A stretch of DNA of 31,150 nucleotides, from the IMG/VR virus record IMGVR_UViG_3300037516_000118, positions 1 to 31,150 of that record; one strand, 5' to 3'. A model generated the notes under the pieces. It saw only the letters and a list, made by a program, of their open reading frames with translations. It ran no database searches and was not told the origin of the DNA. The DNA comes from a virus. Positions within the stretch are counted from its first letter, which is position 1; each line of letters starts with the position of its first letter. Shown here in pieces: positions 6,191 to 29,539 of this stretch. The position numbers and the translations under genes are program-made.

Positions 6191-6218
6191 ATTTTAACAA
6201 CGTGAATAAAAACGTGAA
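6172..6218 (+). promoter_or_regulatory. Hairpin-forming repeats over the HNH start region
   Basis: TTCACGTT (6172-6179) is the exact complement of two downstream copies of AACGTGAA (6199-6206 and 6211-6218). Each downstream copy contains an in-frame GTG start (6202, 6214), and the likely ATG start is at 6223. Two mutually exclusive hairpins could form and mask the start region, suggesting translational control of the nuclease gene. The pairing is seen in the sequence; its role is inferred. Confidence 0.4.
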
Positions 6219-6222
6219 AACA

Positions 6223-6735
6223 ATGGAAGAAATTTTTAGAAATATACCAACCTATGAAGGTTTATATCAAGTAAGTAATTTAGGTAATGTTAAAAGTTTA
6301 TCTAAATATATAATAAGGGGTAATAGTAATTATTACACAAAAGAAAAAATATTAATAAATAAAGTAGATGGAGGTGGATATCTTTTTGTTTGTTTTTGCG
6401 TGAATCAAAATAGAAAATATTTTAAGGTTCATAAATTAGTAGCAATGGCTTTTTTAAATCATATTCCTGACGGCACTCAAAAAATAGTTGTAGACCATAT
6501 TAATAATGATAAAAATAATAATAGATTAGATAATTTACAATTATTAAATCAAAGACAAAACTCATCTAAAAATCATAAAAATAAAACTTCTAAATATGTT
6601 GGAGTTAGTTTTATTAGATATAATAAATGGAGGGCGTCAGTTACATATAAAGGTAAAACAGTAAATTTAGGAGAATATAATTGCGAAACATTAGCATTTA
6701 CTAAATATAATAATTTTTTAAATAAAATAAAATAA
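6223..6735 (+). CDS. NUMOD4/HNH homing endonuclease
   Basis: This is a free-standing homing endonuclease of about 170 residues counted from the ATG at 6223. In-frame GTG codons at 6202 and 6214 are alternative starts. Order of domains: NUMOD4-like (I-P-T-Y-E-G-L-Y-Q-V-S-N-L-G-N-V-K-S-L, near residues 8-27), HNH core (V-H-K-L-V near 69, DHINNDKNNNRLDN near 91-104), then an AP2-like DNA-binding region (KYVGVSFIRYNKWRASV, about 124-140). It would make a site-specific DNA cut that spreads its own gene. It interrupts the lysis cassette, its codons look even more AT-rich than those of its neighbours, and it has its own structured leader; all fit a late arrival. Confidence 0.88.
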   Translation: MEEIFRNIPTYEGLYQVSNLGNVKSLSKYIIRGNSNYYTKEKILINKVDGGGYLFVCFCVNQNRKYFKVHKLVAMAFLNHIPDGTQKIVVDHINNDKNNNRLDNLQLLNQRQNSSKNHKNKTSKYVGVSFIRYNKWRASVTYKGKTVNLGEYNCETLAFTKYNNFLNKIK

Positions 6736-6738
6736 AAT

Positions 6739-7176
6739 ATGAAAACATCACAGAATGCAATTGAATTGATAAAATTATTTGAGGGATGTAAATTGAAATC
6801 TTATAAATGCCCTGCTGGCGTTTGGACTATAGGTTATGGTTCAACTTACTACTTAGATGGTAGCAAAGTTCTAATGGGTCAAAAGATTAGCCAAATAGAA
6901 GCTGATATGTTACTGCTAAAGCTATTGCCTAAATACGAGGCTACAGTAATTAAAAATATTAAGGTTACTTTAAATCAAAACCAATTTGACGCCCTTGTAT
7001 CGTTTTGTTGGAACTGTGGAAGCTCACAAACTTTGTTTAGATTAGTAAACCAAAAAGCTACGGATGAAGTAATTTATGACTGGTTAATAAATCATTATAT
7101 TATGGGAGGTGGTAAAGTGCTTCCAGGATTAATAAGACGTAGAAGAGCTGAAGCTAATTTGTTTATTAAGAAATAA
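6739..7176 (+). CDS. Lysozyme (GH24-type endolysin)
   Basis: The 145-residue protein matches phage muramidases: LIKLFEGCKLKSY followed by GVWTIGYGST. The catalytic set is E15, C24 and T30, the E-8-[D/C]-5-T spacing of GH24 endolysins, with Cys replacing the more usual Asp. W112-L113 and the R-R-R-R-A-E-A-N-L-F ending are also typical. There is no signal-anchor segment, so export depends on the holin. It sits 3 bp after the HNH gene, while the M15 peptidase lies on the HNH gene's other side. The early promoter at 7158-7188 overlaps its 3' end. Confidence 0.9.
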   Translation: MKTSQNAIELIKLFEGCKLKSYKCPAGVWTIGYGSTYYLDGSKVLMGQKISQIEADMLLLKLLPKYEATVIKNIKVTLNQNQFDALVSFCWNCGSSQTLFRLVNQKATDEVIYDWLINHYIMGGGKVLPGLIRRRRAEANLFIKK

Positions 7177-10778: not shown

Positions 10779-12347
10779 ATGAGGATTTTAAGAGATTACC
10801 AAAAAGATTTATTAGAGAAAATAAATCAAAACCATCACAAAAAAATATGCGTTCAACTAGCAACTGGCGGAGGTAAAACGGTTATTTTTTCAGAGTTAGC
10901 AGAAAATTATCAAGGAAGAGTTTTAATACTTGTAGATAGTTCTGAGTTGGTTATTCAAACATCTAACCATATTAAAGGTGCTGGAACATTTGAAGCTAAA
11001 AATGATTTTATACCAAATGATAAAATTATTATTTCAATGGCTCAAACTTTGCGTTCAAGGATTAAAAAAACGCCCGAAATGATAAACGATTTTGATTTAA
11101 TTATAATTGATGAATGTCATATTTTATGCTATGAAAAAATATTAAAAATAGCAACTTGTAAAATTATTGGATTTACAGCTACTCCTGTATCAAATAGAGT
11201 TGATAAATACTTCTATGATTTTGACGACAAAAAAATGTATAAAGAACATTTAGAAAATAGAATTGAATTTAAAAAAGATTTTTATTTATCAGATATTTTT
11301 GAAGATATTATTACAGGTATTCCAATTTCTAAACTAATTGAGCGAGGGTTTTTAGTTCCTGACGAAAACTACATTATTCCAATAGATGAGAACGATTTTA
11401 AATTCGATTCATTTGGCGAGGTTTCAAATTCTGAAGAAGTGTTTGATGTTAAATTTCAAATGAACGTTTTACAGAATTACTTAGAATTTTGTAAAGGAAA
11501 AAAGACTTTGATTTTTACTCAAAACACAAATCTTAATAATATTTTATTTGAACAATTTAAACAAGCTGAAATAGATAATGTATTTATGTACGATTCTGTT
11601 AATTGGACAGAACATAGCAGAAGCGAAGTAGTAGATAAATTTAGAAATACACCAGAATCAGTTTTATTTAATGTAGGATGTTTTACAAAGGGGTTTGATG
11701 TTACGGATGTCGAAGCTATAATAGTAGCAAGGCGTGTATCTTCATTATCTTTATGGATTCAAATAGTTGGTCGAGGTTCACGAACTACCAACAAAGTGTT
11801 TAAAGATAAATTCATTGTAATTGATGGTGGTACAAATATTCAAAGACTAGGTAGATGGTCGGAAGATTTTGATTGGAACGATAAATTTTGGTGCAAAGGA
11901 AATTATAAACCAAAAAAAGAAGCACCAGAAGAAGAAACAAAAGACTGTGAAAACTGCGGTCAATTAATGAATATAAAAGCGTGTTTTTGTAAGTCTTGTG
12001 ATTTCAATAACTGTGAGATAAAAGATGTAGAAATACTAAACAGAATTGCAATAAAAGTAAATTCAGTAGAGATTGATGTTGATAAAATAATTAGATATGC
12101 AGAGGGAAAATGTAAGATTTTCGCTTTAAAAGTTTTAACTTCGCAGGCTGTCCGAAAATTTGATAACATAGATAAAGCACAATTTGAAAGAAATTTAAAC
12201 GGAGGAGTTGAACGTTTTTTAAACACAACTTTTAAAAATGGATACTGGCAAATAATAAAATCAGATTTAGAATCATCTTCAAACAGAACATGGGAAAGAC
12301 AAAGAAATATAGTATTAACCAAATTAAAAAAGAAATATGATATTTAG
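10779..12347 (+). CDS. SF2 DEAD/DEAH-type helicase
   Basis: From the ATG at 10779 the protein has 522 residues; an in-frame ATG at 10737 would add 14 residues but lies inside the leader structure, and family members usually start at the LRDYQ segment found here. Motifs: Q-type start L-R-D-Y-Q (4-8), Walker A ATGGGKT (28-34), DECH box (111-114), T-A-T-P motif III (133-136), and motif VI QIVGRGSRTT in the second RecA domain. A C-terminal zinc ribbon (CENCG...CFCKSC, about residues 387-404) follows. It would unwind DNA for phage replication or recombination. Its stop overlaps the primase gene by 11 bp. Confidence 0.9.
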   Translation: MRILRDYQKDLLEKINQNHHKKICVQLATGGGKTVIFSELAENYQGRVLILVDSSELVIQTSNHIKGAGTFEAKNDFIPNDKIIISMAQTLRSRIKKTPEMINDFDLIIIDECHILCYEKILKIATCKIIGFTATPVSNRVDKYFYDFDDKKMYKEHLENRIEFKKDFYLSDIFEDIITGIPISKLIERGFLVPDENYIIPIDENDFKFDSFGEVSNSEEVFDVKFQMNVLQNYLEFCKGKKTLIFTQNTNLNNILFEQFKQAEIDNVFMYDSVNWTEHSRSEVVDKFRNTPESVLFNVGCFTKGFDVTDVEAIIVARRVSSLSLWIQIVGRGSRTTNKVFKDKFIVIDGGTNIQRLGRWSEDFDWNDKFWCKGNYKPKKEAPEEETKDCENCGQLMNIKACFCKSCDFNNCEIKDVEILNRIAIKVNSVEIDVDKIIRYAEGKCKIFALKVLTSQAVRKFDNIDKAQFERNLNGGVERFLNTTFKNGYWQIIKSDLESSSNRTWERQRNIVLTKLKKKYDI

Positions 12348-14520
12348 TAAATATAAGACACATTTTGAGAAGGATAATATCAAAATAGATTTTGAAAAGT
12401 ATGTAGAATTAGTAAAAAACGGAGACCATCAAGGTTTAATTTTTAATGCTAGAGCGAACATAAAAGATAAAGCAATCTACAATAGTTTTAAATCTCAATT
12501 ACCTGCAATAACAGGAAGTTGCACACAGAAGCAAGGCAGTCGTTCAGTTGCGAACGTTGAGGAAATGAACGGATTAATATTGTTAGATATTGATGATATT
12601 GTAGATACGGAACTACGTAAACGTATTGATGAAGATAAATATACAATGTGTTCTAATCGTTCTGTTAGTGGCACTGGATTAGTTGTATTTGTTAAAATAA
12701 ATCCTGAATTATTTACAGAGTCTTTTCATGGATTAGCTCAGTATTATTCTGATACGTTTAATGTAGATATAGATCAATCATGTAAAGATGCTTCACGTTT
12801 AAGGTATATTTCATATGATATGGATATTTATGTCAATGAAAAATCTTTAAAATTTGTAGCTAAAAAACAAAAAAAAGAAGTAAAAAAAGAAACGTTTTTC
12901 TTTGCTCAGGATGACTTTTCATATATTATAGATCAAATTAAAAGTAGAAATATAGACCTTTGCGAAGATGACTACAAGAAATTTTGCGACATTGGTTTTG
13001 CTATTGGTTCTGAGTTTGGTATAAATGGATTAGATTATTTTAAAGCTATTTGTCAAAATGGGTCTAAATACGATGCTAAAAGAATTGAAAAACAATACTC
13101 TAAATTTTGTCAAAAAGGTAGTATAAATATTTCTACATTCTATTTTTATGCTAAGCAAGCTGGATGCGAACTATATTCTGAAACATCAAAGAAAATAATT
13201 AAACGAGTTGCAGTAGGTAAAGCAAACGGAAGTATTCAAACTCCTGAAAGTGTAATAAAAACACTTGAAATTTTAGGTACAACAACAACAGATAAAAAAT
13301 TCATTCAGCAGTTAATTGATTCAAAAGAAAACTTTGTTAAAAATATAGAAGATGAAAATAATGAAACGGTAAAAATAGATAATTTTATAAAAGAAAACTA
13401 TCCAATAATTAAAAATGATTTTAATCAATCGATGGAAATTGGAAATGAAATATTAAACGATGAAATTATTAATACAATAACAGTTCACGCAAAAAAATAT
13501 TTTGATTTTAAAGTAAGTGCAACAGATGTTAGACAGCTTATATTTAATTCAAAAGCATTAAGTTATAATCCGATTGATGACTATTTTAAAAACAATAACA
13601 CAGAAATAACGGGTAACGAAATAGACGAATATGCAGATTTAATTAAACCTTTTAATATATTTAATAGATGGGTTTTCAGAAAATGGTTAGTCGGAGCTAT
13701 ACACAACTGGACCGCTTCATACGAACATGAAGAAGTTAGTCCATTAGTTTTAGTTTTATGCGGAAAACAAGCAAGCGGAAAAACTTCATTTTTTAGAAAC
13801 ATTCTACCATTAGAGCTTAGGAAATACTTTATTGATGAAAGCATGGAAGAAGCTGGTAAAGACGTAATGAAAAGAATGGCGACATCTTTAATTATGTTAA
13901 ATGATGAGTTTGGGGGAATGGCTGGAAAAGATGTTAAAAACTTCAAAAAGATAACAGAAAAAAATAAGATAACAGTACGATTACCATACGGTCATTTAGA
14001 TGTAGACTTAAAAAGACGTACGATGCTTTGTGGAACAACGAACGATTCAGCAGTTTTAAAAGATGAAACGGGCAACAGAAGGATTTTACCTATCGAATTT
14101 AATTCAGTAGATTACGAACGAGCAAAAGAATTTAATAAAGATGCTTTATTAAAATGTGCCTACAAAATGTATAAAGATAATTTTGAATTTAGAATTTTTA
14201 GCAAAGAAGATATAGATTATCTAAATGAAAACACAACAGCAAATCTTGAGATTGATATTTTTGAAGATTTATTTTTTACTGAATTCGCGATTGAACAAAG
14301 TGAAAGCTTTATAAATGAAGTAATACTAAATCAAGGTGAGATTATGAATTACATGGCGATAAAATTTCAAGCTCAACTAAGTAAATATGACATAAAAAGA
14401 TTAGTAACCAAACACAAACTTGATTTGAAAGCTTATAGATATTTAGGGAAATTAAAAAAGGGCTATAAATTATATAAAGAATTTGAATTTCAGAAAAACA
14501 TTAACGAATCACCATTCTGA
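12337..14520 (+). CDS. Primase-helicase (BT4734-like / PriCT-2 / VapE fusion)
   Basis: This 727-residue replication protein has three parts. Residues ~1-180 match the BT4734/VirE-N type primase-like domain (N-G-L-I-L-L-D-I-D-D-I, SVSGTGLVVFVKI, C-K-D-A-S-R-L-R-Y-I-S). Residues ~195-285 resemble PriCT-2 (C-D-I-G-F-A-I-G-S-E-F-G, T-F-Y-F-Y-A-K). Residues ~430-640 are a VapE-type ATPase with Walker A GKQASGKT (near 475-482), Walker B L-I-M-L-N-D-E-F-G, and the arginine-finger-like T-G-N-R-R-I-L-P. It would prime and unwind at the origin. The iteron region starts at its stop codon, as expected for an origin recognised by the product of the adjacent gene. Confidence 0.88.
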   Translation: MIFSKYKTHFEKDNIKIDFEKYVELVKNGDHQGLIFNARANIKDKAIYNSFKSQLPAITGSCTQKQGSRSVANVEEMNGLILLDIDDIVDTELRKRIDEDKYTMCSNRSVSGTGLVVFVKINPELFTESFHGLAQYYSDTFNVDIDQSCKDASRLRYISYDMDIYVNEKSLKFVAKKQKKEVKKETFFFAQDDFSYIIDQIKSRNIDLCEDDYKKFCDIGFAIGSEFGINGLDYFKAICQNGSKYDAKRIEKQYSKFCQKGSINISTFYFYAKQAGCELYSETSKKIIKRVAVGKANGSIQTPESVIKTLEILGTTTTDKKFIQQLIDSKENFVKNIEDENNETVKIDNFIKENYPIIKNDFNQSMEIGNEILNDEIINTITVHAKKYFDFKVSATDVRQLIFNSKALSYNPIDDYFKNNNTEITGNEIDEYADLIKPFNIFNRWVFRKWLVGAIHNWTASYEHEEVSPLVLVLCGKQASGKTSFFRNILPLELRKYFIDESMEEAGKDVMKRMATSLIMLNDEFGGMAGKDVKNFKKITEKNKITVRLPYGHLDVDLKRRTMLCGTTNDSAVLKDETGNRRILPIEFNSVDYERAKEFNKDALLKCAYKMYKDNFEFRIFSKEDIDYLNENTTANLEIDIFEDLFFTEFAIEQSESFINEVILNQGEIMNYMAIKFQAQLSKYDIKRLVTKHKLDLKAYRYLGKLKKGYKLYKEFEFQKNINESPF

Positions 14521-14790
14521 AATGTTACCTTGTTACCTAAATGTTACCTAAATCTTTTGTTTACAGGTAACAGGGTAAATATTTAATAATTAGTAATTTA
14601 AACTACTTTGTTACCTTGTTACCTAAAATTTTATAAAAAAAGTATTATAGAACATATATATTTACATCATATTACACATAATGACATATAATATATATTA
14701 TATAAAAAAGGTTTGAAAAACGCAAAGTAACAGGTAACAAGGTAACAAAGTTGAAAATCAAGTAGTTATAAAACACTAAAAGGTAACAAA
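14521..14790. other. Candidate replication origin with GTTACC/GGTAAC iterons
   Basis: Nine hexamers GTTACC or GGTAAC occur in 264 bp: 14524, 14532, 14543, 14610, 14618 (GTTACC) and 14566, 14733, 14741, 14782 (GGTAAC). Tandem copies have an 8-bp period (AGGTAACA). A perfect 20-bp inverted repeat (14605-14624 and 14732-14751) flanks a very AT-rich core with an 18-bp palindrome (14686-14703, ATATAATATATATTATAT). Iterons, a dyad and an easily melted core next to the primase-helicase gene make a classic theta-origin layout. A regulatory or packaging role is the alternative. Confidence 0.6.
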
Positions 14791-15165
14791 ATGAAGTTAG
14801 AGAGCATAATTAAGATGAGTGAGGCTAAAATTAAAGCATTAAGCAACAAGTCAGAGTTTACAATTCAAGTGGAAATTGTATCATTTTGCAGAAAGAACGA
14901 TATAATTTGTTTTTCAGTACCAAATGAAGCAACAAGGAATAATTCAAAATATATTCAATCAGGAGTTTTAGCTGGTGTAAGTGATTTAATTGTACTTAAT
15001 AACGGGAAAACTCACTTTGTAGAGTTAAAAGATTATAAAGGTAAGCAATCTGAAAAACAAAAAGAATTTGAAAATAAAGTTATTTCACAAGGCTTTGAAT
15101 ATTTTTTGGTTAGATCACTTGATGAGTTTAAAAAAATAGTTATATTTACGAAAAATAAAATTTAA
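14791..15165 (+). CDS. VRR-NUC domain nuclease
   Basis: The 124-residue protein is a stand-alone VRR-NUC nuclease of the PD-(D/E)xK fold: an N-terminal E28 in Q-V-E-I-V, G-V-S-D-L-I-V with D65, ELK with E78 and K80, and Q90 in S-E-K-Q. Such phage enzymes cleave branched or Holliday-junction DNA, fitting recombination-linked replication with ERF. The ATG sits four bases after the last GGTAAC iteron, so an origin-binding protein could also repress this gene. Confidence 0.87.
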   Translation: MKLESIIKMSEAKIKALSNKSEFTIQVEIVSFCRKNDIICFSVPNEATRNNSKYIQSGVLAGVSDLIVLNNGKTHFVELKDYKGKQSEKQKEFENKVISQGFEYFLVRSLDEFKKIVIFTKNKI

Positions 15166-25617: not shown

Positions 25618-27760
25618 AGTAATTGACTTAGAAGTAAAAACAAACTTAGGCAGTTTAAAGTCACAATTACGGGAAGCGCAAGCGGAGGTTGCTAAGATGT
25701 CGGAAAAGTTTGGAGCGGCTTCGATTGAGGCTTCCAATGCTGCAAAGGCTGCTGGTATTCTTAAAGATAAAATTGGAGATGCTAAGGCGTTAACTGATGC
25801 GTTCAATCCTGATGCTAAGTTTAAATCTGTAACGGCTTCGATTAGTGGTGTAGCGGGTGGATTTGCTGCGTACGAAGGTGCAATGAATTTAGTAGGTGTT
25901 AAGTCTCAAGAGGTAGAAGCAGCATTGTTGAAAGTTCAAAGTGCTATGGCTATTTCACAAGGTTTGCAATCTGTTGGAGAAAGTATAGACAGTTTTAAGC
26001 AATTAGGGGCAGTAATTAAATCTACTTCTATTTTTCAAGGTATATATAACTTTATACAAACGGGTAGTTTTAAAGCTGCTAAAGATACTACTAACGCAGT
26101 AATAGAGGAAACGGTAGCCACTAAGTTGCAAGGTTCTGCAATGGTAGTAACATCTACTAGCACGGGTATTGCAACGGTTGCTATGAAAGCTTTTAGAGCT
26201 GCAATGATAGCAACGGGAATAGGTGCGTTAATAGCGGGGCTTGTTATGGCGGTGCAGGCGTTAAGTTCATTTGGAGGTGAAACTGAATCTACTGAAGATA
26301 AGCAAAAAAGATTAGACGCTGCATTAGCCGCTACTAATAAAACCTTAGATGCTCAAAAATTAGCTTACGACCGAGCAGGTGATGCTTCAAAATTTGCAAA
26401 TGATAAACAGTTAATTGATGCTTTAAATGCGGGAGCAAGTGAAAAGGAATTAAACGCTATAAAATTAAAAGGTTCTAAAGATAGATTAGCTATTATAAAA
26501 GCTGAATACGATAAGACTAAAGAAAATGTGCTTACAATGTATTCTGATTCAAAAATTAGCGCAGCTCAAGTAAACGCATTATTAGTAGCTAGAAATCAAG
26601 CAGGTAAAAAATACGCTGATGAACTTATCAATCTTGAGATGTCTCAAGCTGAAGCTAAGAATGCAAGTATAAAGGCAGCACAAACAAAGCAAGATGAAGC
26701 TAATAAAAAGAATAGAGAAGCTAATAAAGCTCACAACGATAAGAAAAAAGCAGACGATGCAAAACACCTTGCAGATTCAGCTAAGGCAATAGAAGATAAT
26801 AGGATTGCTATACATAATAGCGAGGTTGGATTCTTTGAAGCTGAAATTGCATCTAATGATAAATTAAGTAAAAAAGCTTTTGAAGCACAAAAAGGATTAT
26901 TACTAGAAAATAGAGATTTTGCCCTAACAGAATTAAAATTAACTGAAGGACAAAAAGAAGCTATTAAGGCTAAATATATTGCAGACGATATACAGCTACA
27001 AAAAGACCATGACTTAGCCGTAAAAGAAGCCGCGCAAAAAGTAGATGAAGATATATATAAAAGTAAAAAAGGATTTATAGAGGGTGCAATAAGTGATGAT
27101 GAAAAAAACCTACAATTTAAAAAAGATTTATTATTAGTTGAAAGAGATTTTACATTATTAAATACTGAATTAACTGAAGGTGAAATTTTCGCTATTAAAC
27201 AAAAATATGCTAAGGACGTTGCTGATTTAGATAAAGCTGAAATTGTACAAAAACAAGAGGGACAAAAACAAAAGCTAGAAATGGCGGTTCGAGCGTTTAG
27301 TATATTACAAGATGCGACTACCCTATTCACTGCTAAAAACGATAAAGATGCACGTAATCAATTTAAAATAAACAAAGCTTTATCTTTAAGTTCTGCAATT
27401 GTTAACACGGCTTTAGGGGTTACAAGTGCTTTGAAGATGCCTATTGAACTATTCCCCGGGCAAAGATTTGTAGAAGCTGCTTTAGTAGGTGCTGCGGGTG
27501 GTGTTTCTATTGCTAAAATTGCAGGAACTCAATATGCTGCTGCAGGCGGTGGTGGTTCAGGTGGTGGTGGTGGTGGTAGTGGTGGTGGTGGTTCTACTCC
27601 TGCTGCTCCACAAAGCGCGCCCAACTTTAACTTAGTAGGTGCAACGGGTTTAAATCAATTAGATATGCTAGGCAAACCAATACAAGCGTTTGTTGTTGGC
27701 GGTGAAGTTACAACTTATCAAGAGTTAGAACGCAATAGGTTACGAAATGCAACTTTATAA
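25604..27760 (+). CDS. Tape measure protein
   Basis: The 718-residue, Ala/Lys/Glu-rich protein has coiled-coil segments at both ends of the middle region and a hydrophobic block (about residues 195-220, A-M-I-A-T-G-I-G-A-L-I-A-G-L-V), as usual for tape measures. It sets tail length and threads through the tube; at about 0.15 nm per residue the tail would be near 100 nm. Residues ~400-550 contain two diverged ~77-residue repeats (L-L-L-E-N-R-D-F-A-L-T-E and L-L-L-V-E-R-D-F-T-L-L-N). A GGT-repeat-encoded poly-Gly/Ser linker lies near residue 650. Confidence 0.88.
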   Translation: MAESKVIDLEVKTNLGSLKSQLREAQAEVAKMSEKFGAASIEASNAAKAAGILKDKIGDAKALTDAFNPDAKFKSVTASISGVAGGFAAYEGAMNLVGVKSQEVEAALLKVQSAMAISQGLQSVGESIDSFKQLGAVIKSTSIFQGIYNFIQTGSFKAAKDTTNAVIEETVATKLQGSAMVVTSTSTGIATVAMKAFRAAMIATGIGALIAGLVMAVQALSSFGGETESTEDKQKRLDAALAATNKTLDAQKLAYDRAGDASKFANDKQLIDALNAGASEKELNAIKLKGSKDRLAIIKAEYDKTKENVLTMYSDSKISAAQVNALLVARNQAGKKYADELINLEMSQAEAKNASIKAAQTKQDEANKKNREANKAHNDKKKADDAKHLADSAKAIEDNRIAIHNSEVGFFEAEIASNDKLSKKAFEAQKGLLLENRDFALTELKLTEGQKEAIKAKYIADDIQLQKDHDLAVKEAAQKVDEDIYKSKKGFIEGAISDDEKNLQFKKDLLLVERDFTLLNTELTEGEIFAIKQKYAKDVADLDKAEIVQKQEGQKQKLEMAVRAFSILQDATTLFTAKNDKDARNQFKINKALSLSSAIVNTALGVTSALKMPIELFPGQRFVEAALVGAAGGVSIAKIAGTQYAAAGGGGSGGGGGGSGGGGSTPAAPQSAPNFNLVGATGLNQLDMLGKPIQAFVVGGEVTTYQELERNRLRNATL

Positions 27761-27771
27761 ATTATATAGAT

Positions 27772-28359
27772 ATGGAAAAGAGACAATGTATAGAAATGAT
27801 TATTAATGATGAGATGTTGGATGGTGTGTTTGCTATTTCACTTGTTGATAAACCTGCAATAGAAGAAAACTTTATTAAACTTTCATCTGAAAAAATACAG
27901 TTAAAGGTAGTTGATGAAGAACGTAGAATAGTTGTTGGGTTTGCTCTAGTTCCTGAAAAGAAAATATTAAGACGTGCTGAAGACGGAACGGAATACGATA
28001 TAAAATTTAGTAGAGAAACGGTACAATTGACTGCTGAATTATTTATGAAAAACCAAAAAGGTAATGAGTTCACTTTGGAGCATGAAGACGACACCGACGG
28101 AGTTAACATAATTGAAAGTTGGATAGTTGAAGATGCTAAAAACGATAAATCTAACATCTACAATTTAGGTGCTAAGGGTGGTGAGTGGTGTTTGATGTCT
28201 AAAATTGATAATCAAAAAGTGTGGGATGAAATTAAACTAGGAACTTATAACGGTTATTCTATTGAGGGTAAATTCTTTTCTAGTAAAGAAGCTTTAAAAG
28301 AAGTTGAAACTATTGATGAAGACTTAGAAGCGTTAAAGAAATTCCTAAAAACTTTGTAA
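27772..28359 (+). CDS. XkdF-like prohead serine protease
   Basis: The 195-residue protein matches the XkdF/S78_2 protease family: S-L-V-D-K-P-A-I-E-E-N-F (residues 23-34), V-V-G-F-A-L-V-P (54-61), F-T-L-E-H-E with H104, I-I-E-S-W-I-V-E (113-120), and G-T-Y-N-G-Y-S-I-E-G with S163. H104 and S163 are the likely catalytic pair. It would cleave scaffold or capsid protein during maturation. It opens the head module, 11 bp after the tape measure. Confidence 0.85.
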   Translation: MEKRQCIEMIINDEMLDGVFAISLVDKPAIEENFIKLSSEKIQLKVVDEERRIVVGFALVPEKKILRRAEDGTEYDIKFSRETVQLTAELFMKNQKGNEFTLEHEDDTDGVNIIESWIVEDAKNDKSNIYNLGAKGGEWCLMSKIDNQKVWDEIKLGTYNGYSIEGKFFSSKEALKEVETIDEDLEALKKFLKTL

Positions 28360-29201: not shown

Positions 29202-29539
29202 GAGATAATATTTTAAAAGATATATACGCAAATGACAAAATAGAGTTAAGTTCTATTGAGGTGAAGTTAGCTTTAATTGATAAATTTAGAAATGAATATA
29301 ATAAAATACAAAGCGGAAACACTGCTAAATATGTAGAGCAATTACAATCAATTAGAACCAATGTATTAAAAGGTATTGAACAAGTTGGAACCTATCAAGA
29401 AAAGATTGGAAAAACTATACAAGGATTAAATACTATAGGTCTTACAGATGAGATAAAACCTTTTCAAAGTTTATACAATGACATTAAAAATGATTTTGAT
29501 GAATTAGTATTTATTAATGATAAATTAAAATCTATTTAA
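29198..29539 (+). CDS. Hypothetical coiled-coil head-module protein
   Basis: The 113-residue protein is almost entirely helical, with heptad-like spacing (I-E-V-K-L-A-L-I-D-K-F-R; Y-V-E-Q-L-Q-S-I-R-T). No family is recognised. As the first gene after late element C and upstream of the scaffold-like and capsid genes, it may be a minor head or assembly protein. Confidence 0.7.
   Translation: MRDNILKDIYANDKIELSSIEVKLALIDKFRNEYNKIQSGNTAKYVEQLQSIRTNVLKGIEQVGTYQEKIGKTIQGLNTIGLTDEIKPFQSLYNDIKNDFDELVFINDKLKSI

Follow-up and report, generated by a model that had tools for sequence, protein, structure and literature searches.

What does the run of short repeats between the primase-helicase gene and the VRR-NUC gene of this virus do, and which protein reads it? 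The window, that is, the whole stretch of DNA analyzed here, is a virus record of 31,150 bases from a Flavobacterium-type phage, and an earlier note had proposed that the gap at 14521–14790 is a candidate iteron origin of replication.

Nine iterons surround an AT-rich core

Nine GTTACC/GGTAAC hexamers lie at 14524–14787, with the primase-helicase gene on one side and the VRR-NUC gene on the other, each at the position given by the earlier note, and the 8-bp spacing that it had described for hexamer pairs was likewise recovered, in three such pairs. Two of its details needed correction. The common unit of the repeats is not the hexamer but the 8-mer AGGTAACA, with an array spanning 14523–14788, and the distance from the last hexamer to the VRR-NUC ATG is 3 nt rather than four bases. 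The window holds 18 hexamers in total (~9.8 expected from shuffles), half of which sit in this gap, where ~0.08 would be expected in 264 bp. The computed repeat statistic reached g = 41 at the array, compared with a median of 5 and a 99% value of 12.7 for ordinary 300-bp windows. Only one other repeat peak is comparable, a coding GGT/ACC run (27301–27800) in the Gly-rich part of a tape-measure-like gene of the window.

The iterons form two groups (Table 1). Five of those on the left point one way and one is reversed, and the three on the right point opposite to the left five. Between the groups lies the AT-rich core; no 100-bp stretch of the window is less stable than the one beginning at 14620, with near ties at 29460 and 6497. 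GC skew, which had been suggested as a check, was positive along the whole window without a switch and gave no support for an origin; lacking a turning point, it is uninformative. An Rfam search returned only a sub-threshold miRNA match, which was disregarded.

Table 1. Coordinates of features at the array and of nuclease genes in relatives (relatives in their own numbering)
Feature	Coordinates	Strand	Remark
Primase-helicase gene, 727 residues (proposed initiator)	12337..14520	+	Pfam matches far above cut-off; PHROG DNA primase/helicase
Predicted winged helix of the primase, codons 660–714 (proposed iteron-binding domain)	14314..14478	+	AlphaFold2
Wing codons 699–708 of the primase	14431..14460	+	Residues 699, 701, 706, 708 track p5, p8, p5, p3
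Iteron 1	14523..14530	-	AGGTAACA on - strand
Iteron 2	14531..14538	-	
Iteron 3	14542..14549	-	
Iteron 4	14565..14572	+	Opposite orientation
Inverted repeat (20 bp), left arm	14605..14624	+	Iterons 5–6 plus 4 bp
Iteron 5	14609..14616	-	Inner left pair
Iteron 6	14617..14624	-	Inner left pair
AT-rich core (proposed unwinding element)	14625..14724	not assigned	85% AT
AT-only palindrome (18 bp) in core	14686..14703	not assigned	Probably incidental
Inverted repeat (20 bp), right arm	14732..14751	+	Iterons 7–8 plus 4 bp
Iteron 7	14732..14739	+	Inner right pair
Iteron 8	14740..14747	+	Inner right pair
Iteron 9	14781..14788	+	Directly 5′ of VRR-NUC start codon; position kept in 51/66 relatives
VRR-NUC nuclease gene, 3′ of array	14791..15165	+	PF08774, E 2e-5
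T5orf172 nuclease gene, L279	4692-5261		
T5orf172 nuclease gene, L283	6470-7051		
T5orf172 nuclease gene, L289	6236-6808		
T5orf172 nuclease gene, L294 (= mumin6-1)	6241-6801		
T5orf172 nuclease gene, L387	5731-6303		
T5orf172 nuclease gene, L424	5670-6245		

The array keeps its place and layout among relatives

Primase scans of viral contigs and phage records yielded approximately 85 distinct loci with 37–95% identity, including isolated Muminvirus phages of Flavobacterium, which have been described as lytic (PMC7077304). A search of genome contigs yielded a single relative, a contig of a Flavobacterium MAG. Two scans at the DNA level were set aside: matches of a loose pattern for the AT core in viral contigs looked like chance, and the exact GTTACCTTGTTACC was too unspecific.

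Behind the primase gene, the repeat-word threshold was passed by 61 of the 67 uninterrupted loci versus 9 of 706 control windows, and the six loci below it (score, 9–11) still had recognizable repeats. The earlier note had named related phages that keep the primase gene and lose the repeats as grounds for refutation, and this situation was not encountered. The layout was kept as well: of 66 loci, 44 had the first iteron at most 12 nt from the primase stop codon, and 51 had the last one at most 12 nt from the next start codon. With a median gap of 251 bp from the primase to the next gene, this is the arrangement expected of an origin located directly downstream. No clear array was found at the same place in the distant relatives Cellulophaga phi46:1 and Nonlabens P12024S/L (~30% identity).

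The two symmetric elements described by the earlier note are real but are not part of this conserved layout. The 20-bp inverted repeat is perfect in the window, where it merely results from two inner iteron pairs that face each other plus four matching bases, but relatives mostly lack a long one: a length of at least 16 bp is reached in only 15 of 65 (median, 9 bp). The 18-bp palindrome is exact but AT-only and not conserved (median of the relatives' longest palindrome, 8). These counts bear on a stem-loop origin of the pRN1 type, in which the inverted repeat would extrude a long hairpin and the primase would recognize its shape. ORF904 of pRN1 is a primase-helicase with a winged helix, and the origin, with a 100-nt stem-loop, lies 3′ of its gene (PMC4234260). 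The phage enzyme is of the same class (primase, SF3-type helicase, and winged helix), its proposed origin is also 3′ of the gene, and the window does contain the perfect repeat. The relatives, however, keep the number and position of the iterons rather than a hairpin, and the covariation described below is base specific. Because the hairpin is not conserved, with iterons here in place of the stem-loop of pRN1, we regard a pRN1-type origin as very unlikely.

The place of the last iteron, close to the start codon in most loci, would also suit an operator, to which the primase-helicase binds to repress or time VRR-NUC and later genes without any origin being involved. One relative, L339 (= L025), has a downstream gene other than VRR-NUC and lacks the last iteron by the start codon, as an operator would predict, but it retains the rest of the array despite the different gene. 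Moreover, the Bacteroidetes promoter pattern TTTG/TAnnTTTG was not found in the gap, and nine iterons placed on both sides of a 100-bp AT core far exceed what an operator needs. We therefore consider it unlikely that the array is an operator and no origin. The two functions can coexist, and the last iteron may still serve to regulate VRR-NUC.

All iterons of an array change their word together

Within nearly every locus the iterons have one word in common (few arrays are mixed), and this word differs among loci. As determined by a Markov-corrected word count (an earlier motif finder had drifted to poly-A), the words comprise AGGTAACA, AGGTTACA, AAGTAAACA, AAGTTACA, AAATTACA, and ATATTACA, as well as ACATTACA, TATTACCT, CCTTACCT, AGGTAGTG, AGGTAAAA, AGGTAACC/T, and others. 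When placed on a tree of the remainder of the primase, the words show repeated switches. Between L306 (= snusmum; word, AGGTAACC) and L292 (word, ATATTACA), DNA identity is 95–98% across most of the primase body and ~99% in the 90-bp core, yet every iteron to the left and right of this core is different. Since changed iterons flank an unchanged core, a single one-block exchange cannot explain the pattern. Near-identical primase bodies with different words and differing wings were also found in the pairs L306/L296 (99.4%) and L301/L299 (99.1%).

Some arrays contain two words (GGTAACA and GAAACA in L327, TATTACC and CTTACC in L324, and GGTTACC and GGTAACC in L305) and have possibly been caught in transition. 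Other arrays fall outside the common frame, namely AGGGGGAA in L346/L345 and the words of a AATGACAA clade (listed loci: L346, L345, L336, L430, and L423). Perhaps these out-of-frame words reflect another reading mode of the same winged-helix domain.

The primase-helicase ends in a predicted winged helix

The primase-helicase comprises a BT4734-like_N domain (residues 51–165), PriCT_2 (209–272), a VapE-like helicase domain (442–632), and a C-terminal winged helix. The VapE-like domain reached 104 bits (cut-off, 25), which qualifies the enzyme as an AAA+/SF3-like helicase, and among solved structures the closest to the helicase part is PDB 7pds, annotated as "similar to D. nodosus vapE" (profile match, E = 5e-12). 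AlphaFold2, run on 60 natural sequences, predicted the winged helix with a pLDDT of ~85–95 and a beta-alpha-alpha-beta-beta topology, with a recognition helix at ~683–692 (YDIKRLVTKH) that shows little variation and wing strands at ~697–702 and ~705–714. In a fold search with this domain, the PDB look-alikes were winged-helix proteins with weak scores (Z up to 6.9), and no Foldseek match was significant; thus, we claim no specific structural relative.

Wing residues track individual bases of the word

In a first ranking of all primase columns against the iteron bases, the words had been framed by hand after the protein had been seen. For this reason the ranking was redone blind, with the DNA as the sole basis for words, orientation, and frame and with a tree built from primase residues 1–640 only. 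Hand and blind words differed materially at two loci, L318 (displaced array, misoriented) and L324 (mixed).

Four wing residues, 699, 701, 706, and 708, ranked at the top of all primase columns for their respective bases. At p8, Arg701 was paired with A and Lys701 with C or T without exception (46 of 46 loci), and each of the 11 switches inferred on the tree coincided with a switch at residue 701 (hypergeometric P = 1e-11). Base p5 was T in the presence of Val706 or Leu699 and A otherwise in 50 of 51 loci, the exception being L318, whose displaced array the program had oriented wrongly; 11 of 13 switches coincided with column 706 (P = 3e-8), and among hand-framed GGTWAC words Leu699 was paired with T in three separate clades. 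Base p3 was G with Lys708 (Arg in one case) and a different base with Phe, Met, His, Val, or Ile, again excepting the misoriented L318. Despite this near-perfect association, tree coincidence alone was weak for p3 and residue 708 (4 of 11; P = 0.02).

The covarying columns were found by search, though a family-wise null was applied: with random switches simulated on the same tree, 0 of 150 runs reached the observed best-column value for any of p3, p5, and p8. The best columns scored 0.35–0.45 in VRR-NUC and 0.28–0.57 in primase residues 1–600, compared with 0.62–0.98 in the primase C-terminus; that is, neither in the equally linked VRR-NUC protein nor in the rest of the primase does any column track the iteron bases as the wing does. 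A partial distance correlation ranked windows 651–670 and 691–710 first and second but only slightly above the others, and it is too blunt here; the per-column tests are sharper. Seven loci outside the blind set carry the words that the code predicts, namely L279 (xGGTAAAA), L289 (xGTTACA), L294 (AGGTAACC), L387 (xGGTTACA), L438 (AGGTAACA), L327 (GGTAACA), and L424 (xxGTTAC(C/T)). As most of these sequences were known when the rule was applied, this is a consistency check and no blind forecast. The mixed array of L347 is at odds with its predicted word.

The covarying residues alternate along the two predicted wing strands (699 and 701 on one, 706 and 708 on the other), and their order from the base of the hairpin to its tip (708; 699/706; 701) parallels the order of the bases (p3; p5; p8). 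A wing lying along the DNA would give such matching orders, an inference that rests on the secondary structure of the model and on no docked complex.

Covariation with the wing singles out the primase as the iteron-binding protein, albeit without binding data, and it also bears on the idea that the array serves in packaging, as a pac site, or is some other structural phage signal. Terminase genes do lie downstream in the window and in Muminvirus, but the terminase of the window is ~4 kb away, and a word that follows the primase wing is not what packaging would lead one to expect. We give this idea hardly any credence. A candidate iteron origin, as the earlier note had suspected, that is read by the primase-helicase is the best-supported reading, carried by the conserved array and its covariation with the primase wing.

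Proposed initiation mechanism and comparison with known origins

With no binding or replication data at hand, we infer that the primase-helicase is very probably the reader of the iterons and the array its origin. We hold with considerable confidence that the gap at 14521–14790 is a replication origin whose nine AGGTAACA iterons are bound by the winged helix of the primase-helicase and rewritten together with its wing. In the mechanism we propose, the C-terminal winged helix would bind the iterons just 3′ of its own gene, with the choice of bases made mainly by beta-wing residues 699, 701, 706, and 708. The two iteron groups that face each other across the 100-bp core are inferred to seat two helicase assemblies, which would melt the AT-rich DNA and load the helicase, and the enzyme itself would also prime synthesis. 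Relatives rewrite all iterons and the wing residues jointly, and from this joint rewriting we propose that each phage keeps a private origin.

An iteron origin as such is of a known kind; what is new here is the concerted rewriting with its residue-level match, together with a nuclease that shares the reading domain (see below). In SaPI-type origins, multiple short iterons flank an AT-rich region, and the phage gap fits this description. SaPI Rep helicases recognize, through their C-terminal domain, iterons directly 3′ of their own gene, and SCCmec Cch2 is alike (PMC7581432). SaPI Rep/ori, SCCmec Cch2 with its putative ori, and the phage system thus share a self-loading helicase and short iterons directly 3′ of its gene, with binding and helicase loading inferred in the phage. 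In contrast to SaPI, the tailed phage has a fused BT4734_N primase, its iteron sequences are unrelated, and the natural series of rewritten words in its family exposes links between single residues and single bases. Judging from ORF translations without a family search, genes of the window resemble those for terminase, portal, major capsid, and tape measure. The proposed system would work like SaPI Rep/ori, yet the virus, having structural genes of its own, does not qualify as a satellite and is no SaPI.

The iterons of geminiviruses are conserved in position, differ in sequence between close relatives, and match the cognate initiator (PMC12548392). In the phages, too, the place is kept and the word changed; geminivirus Rep, however, is an unrelated rolling-circle protein of plant single-stranded DNA viruses, and the likeness is an analogy only. 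In the PLE RepA_N/ori system, the DNA-binding domain of the initiator and the origin covary by module exchange (PMC8263062).

It has long been puzzling how an initiator can change in step with the many scattered copies of its binding site. Natural matched pairs are available in this family, with enzyme bodies up to 99% identical and words differing at several positions, and the named residues and bases can now be put to the test. The code also provides a cheap route to locate origins in VapE-type phages and to predict potential competition between phages at one another's origins.

A nuclease at the proposed origins of relatives carries the same domain

Six distinct relatives have a T5orf172 nuclease gene (PF10544/PF13455 matches) inside or just past the array (Table 1). 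The insert is present in mumin6-1 (gp040) and absent from snusmum6-1 and from the window. The C-terminal 69 residues of the nuclease match the primase winged helix (hhalign, 98.3%; E = 1.3e-14) and have the same predicted topology, and the residue equivalent to 701 is that of the same genome's primase in 4 of 6 cases.

ICP1 encodes Odn, a T5orf172 nuclease joined to an initiator-type DNA-binding domain; Odn cleaves the origins of satellites at their iterons and is regarded as a driver of origin switching (PMC8263062). As in Odn, the T5orf172 protein of several relatives carries a copy of the initiator domain, here the primase winged helix. In contrast to Odn and PLE, the binding domain has an unrelated fold (not RepA_N), and the gene lies inside or beside the phage's own origin, with no activity shown. 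The nuclease is thus a candidate Odn-like origin-directed nuclease, in which the domain fusion is present and cutting has not been demonstrated. Its presence suggests a possible independent emergence of the origin-targeted warfare seen in ICP1 and PLE. We tentatively raise the possibility, which we rate below an even chance, of an arms race in which nucleases that have captured the winged helix and inserted at the origin would cleave the origins of co-infecting competitors with the same word and thereby select for repeated concerted rewriting. If so, it would have produced a readable amino-acid-to-base code and mutually private origins among near-identical phages, with all iterons and three or four wing residues rewritten around an unchanged core.

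The window also contains another nuclease gene, for a homing-type endonuclease (NUMOD4/HNH), at 6202–6735 between peptidase and lysozyme-like genes.
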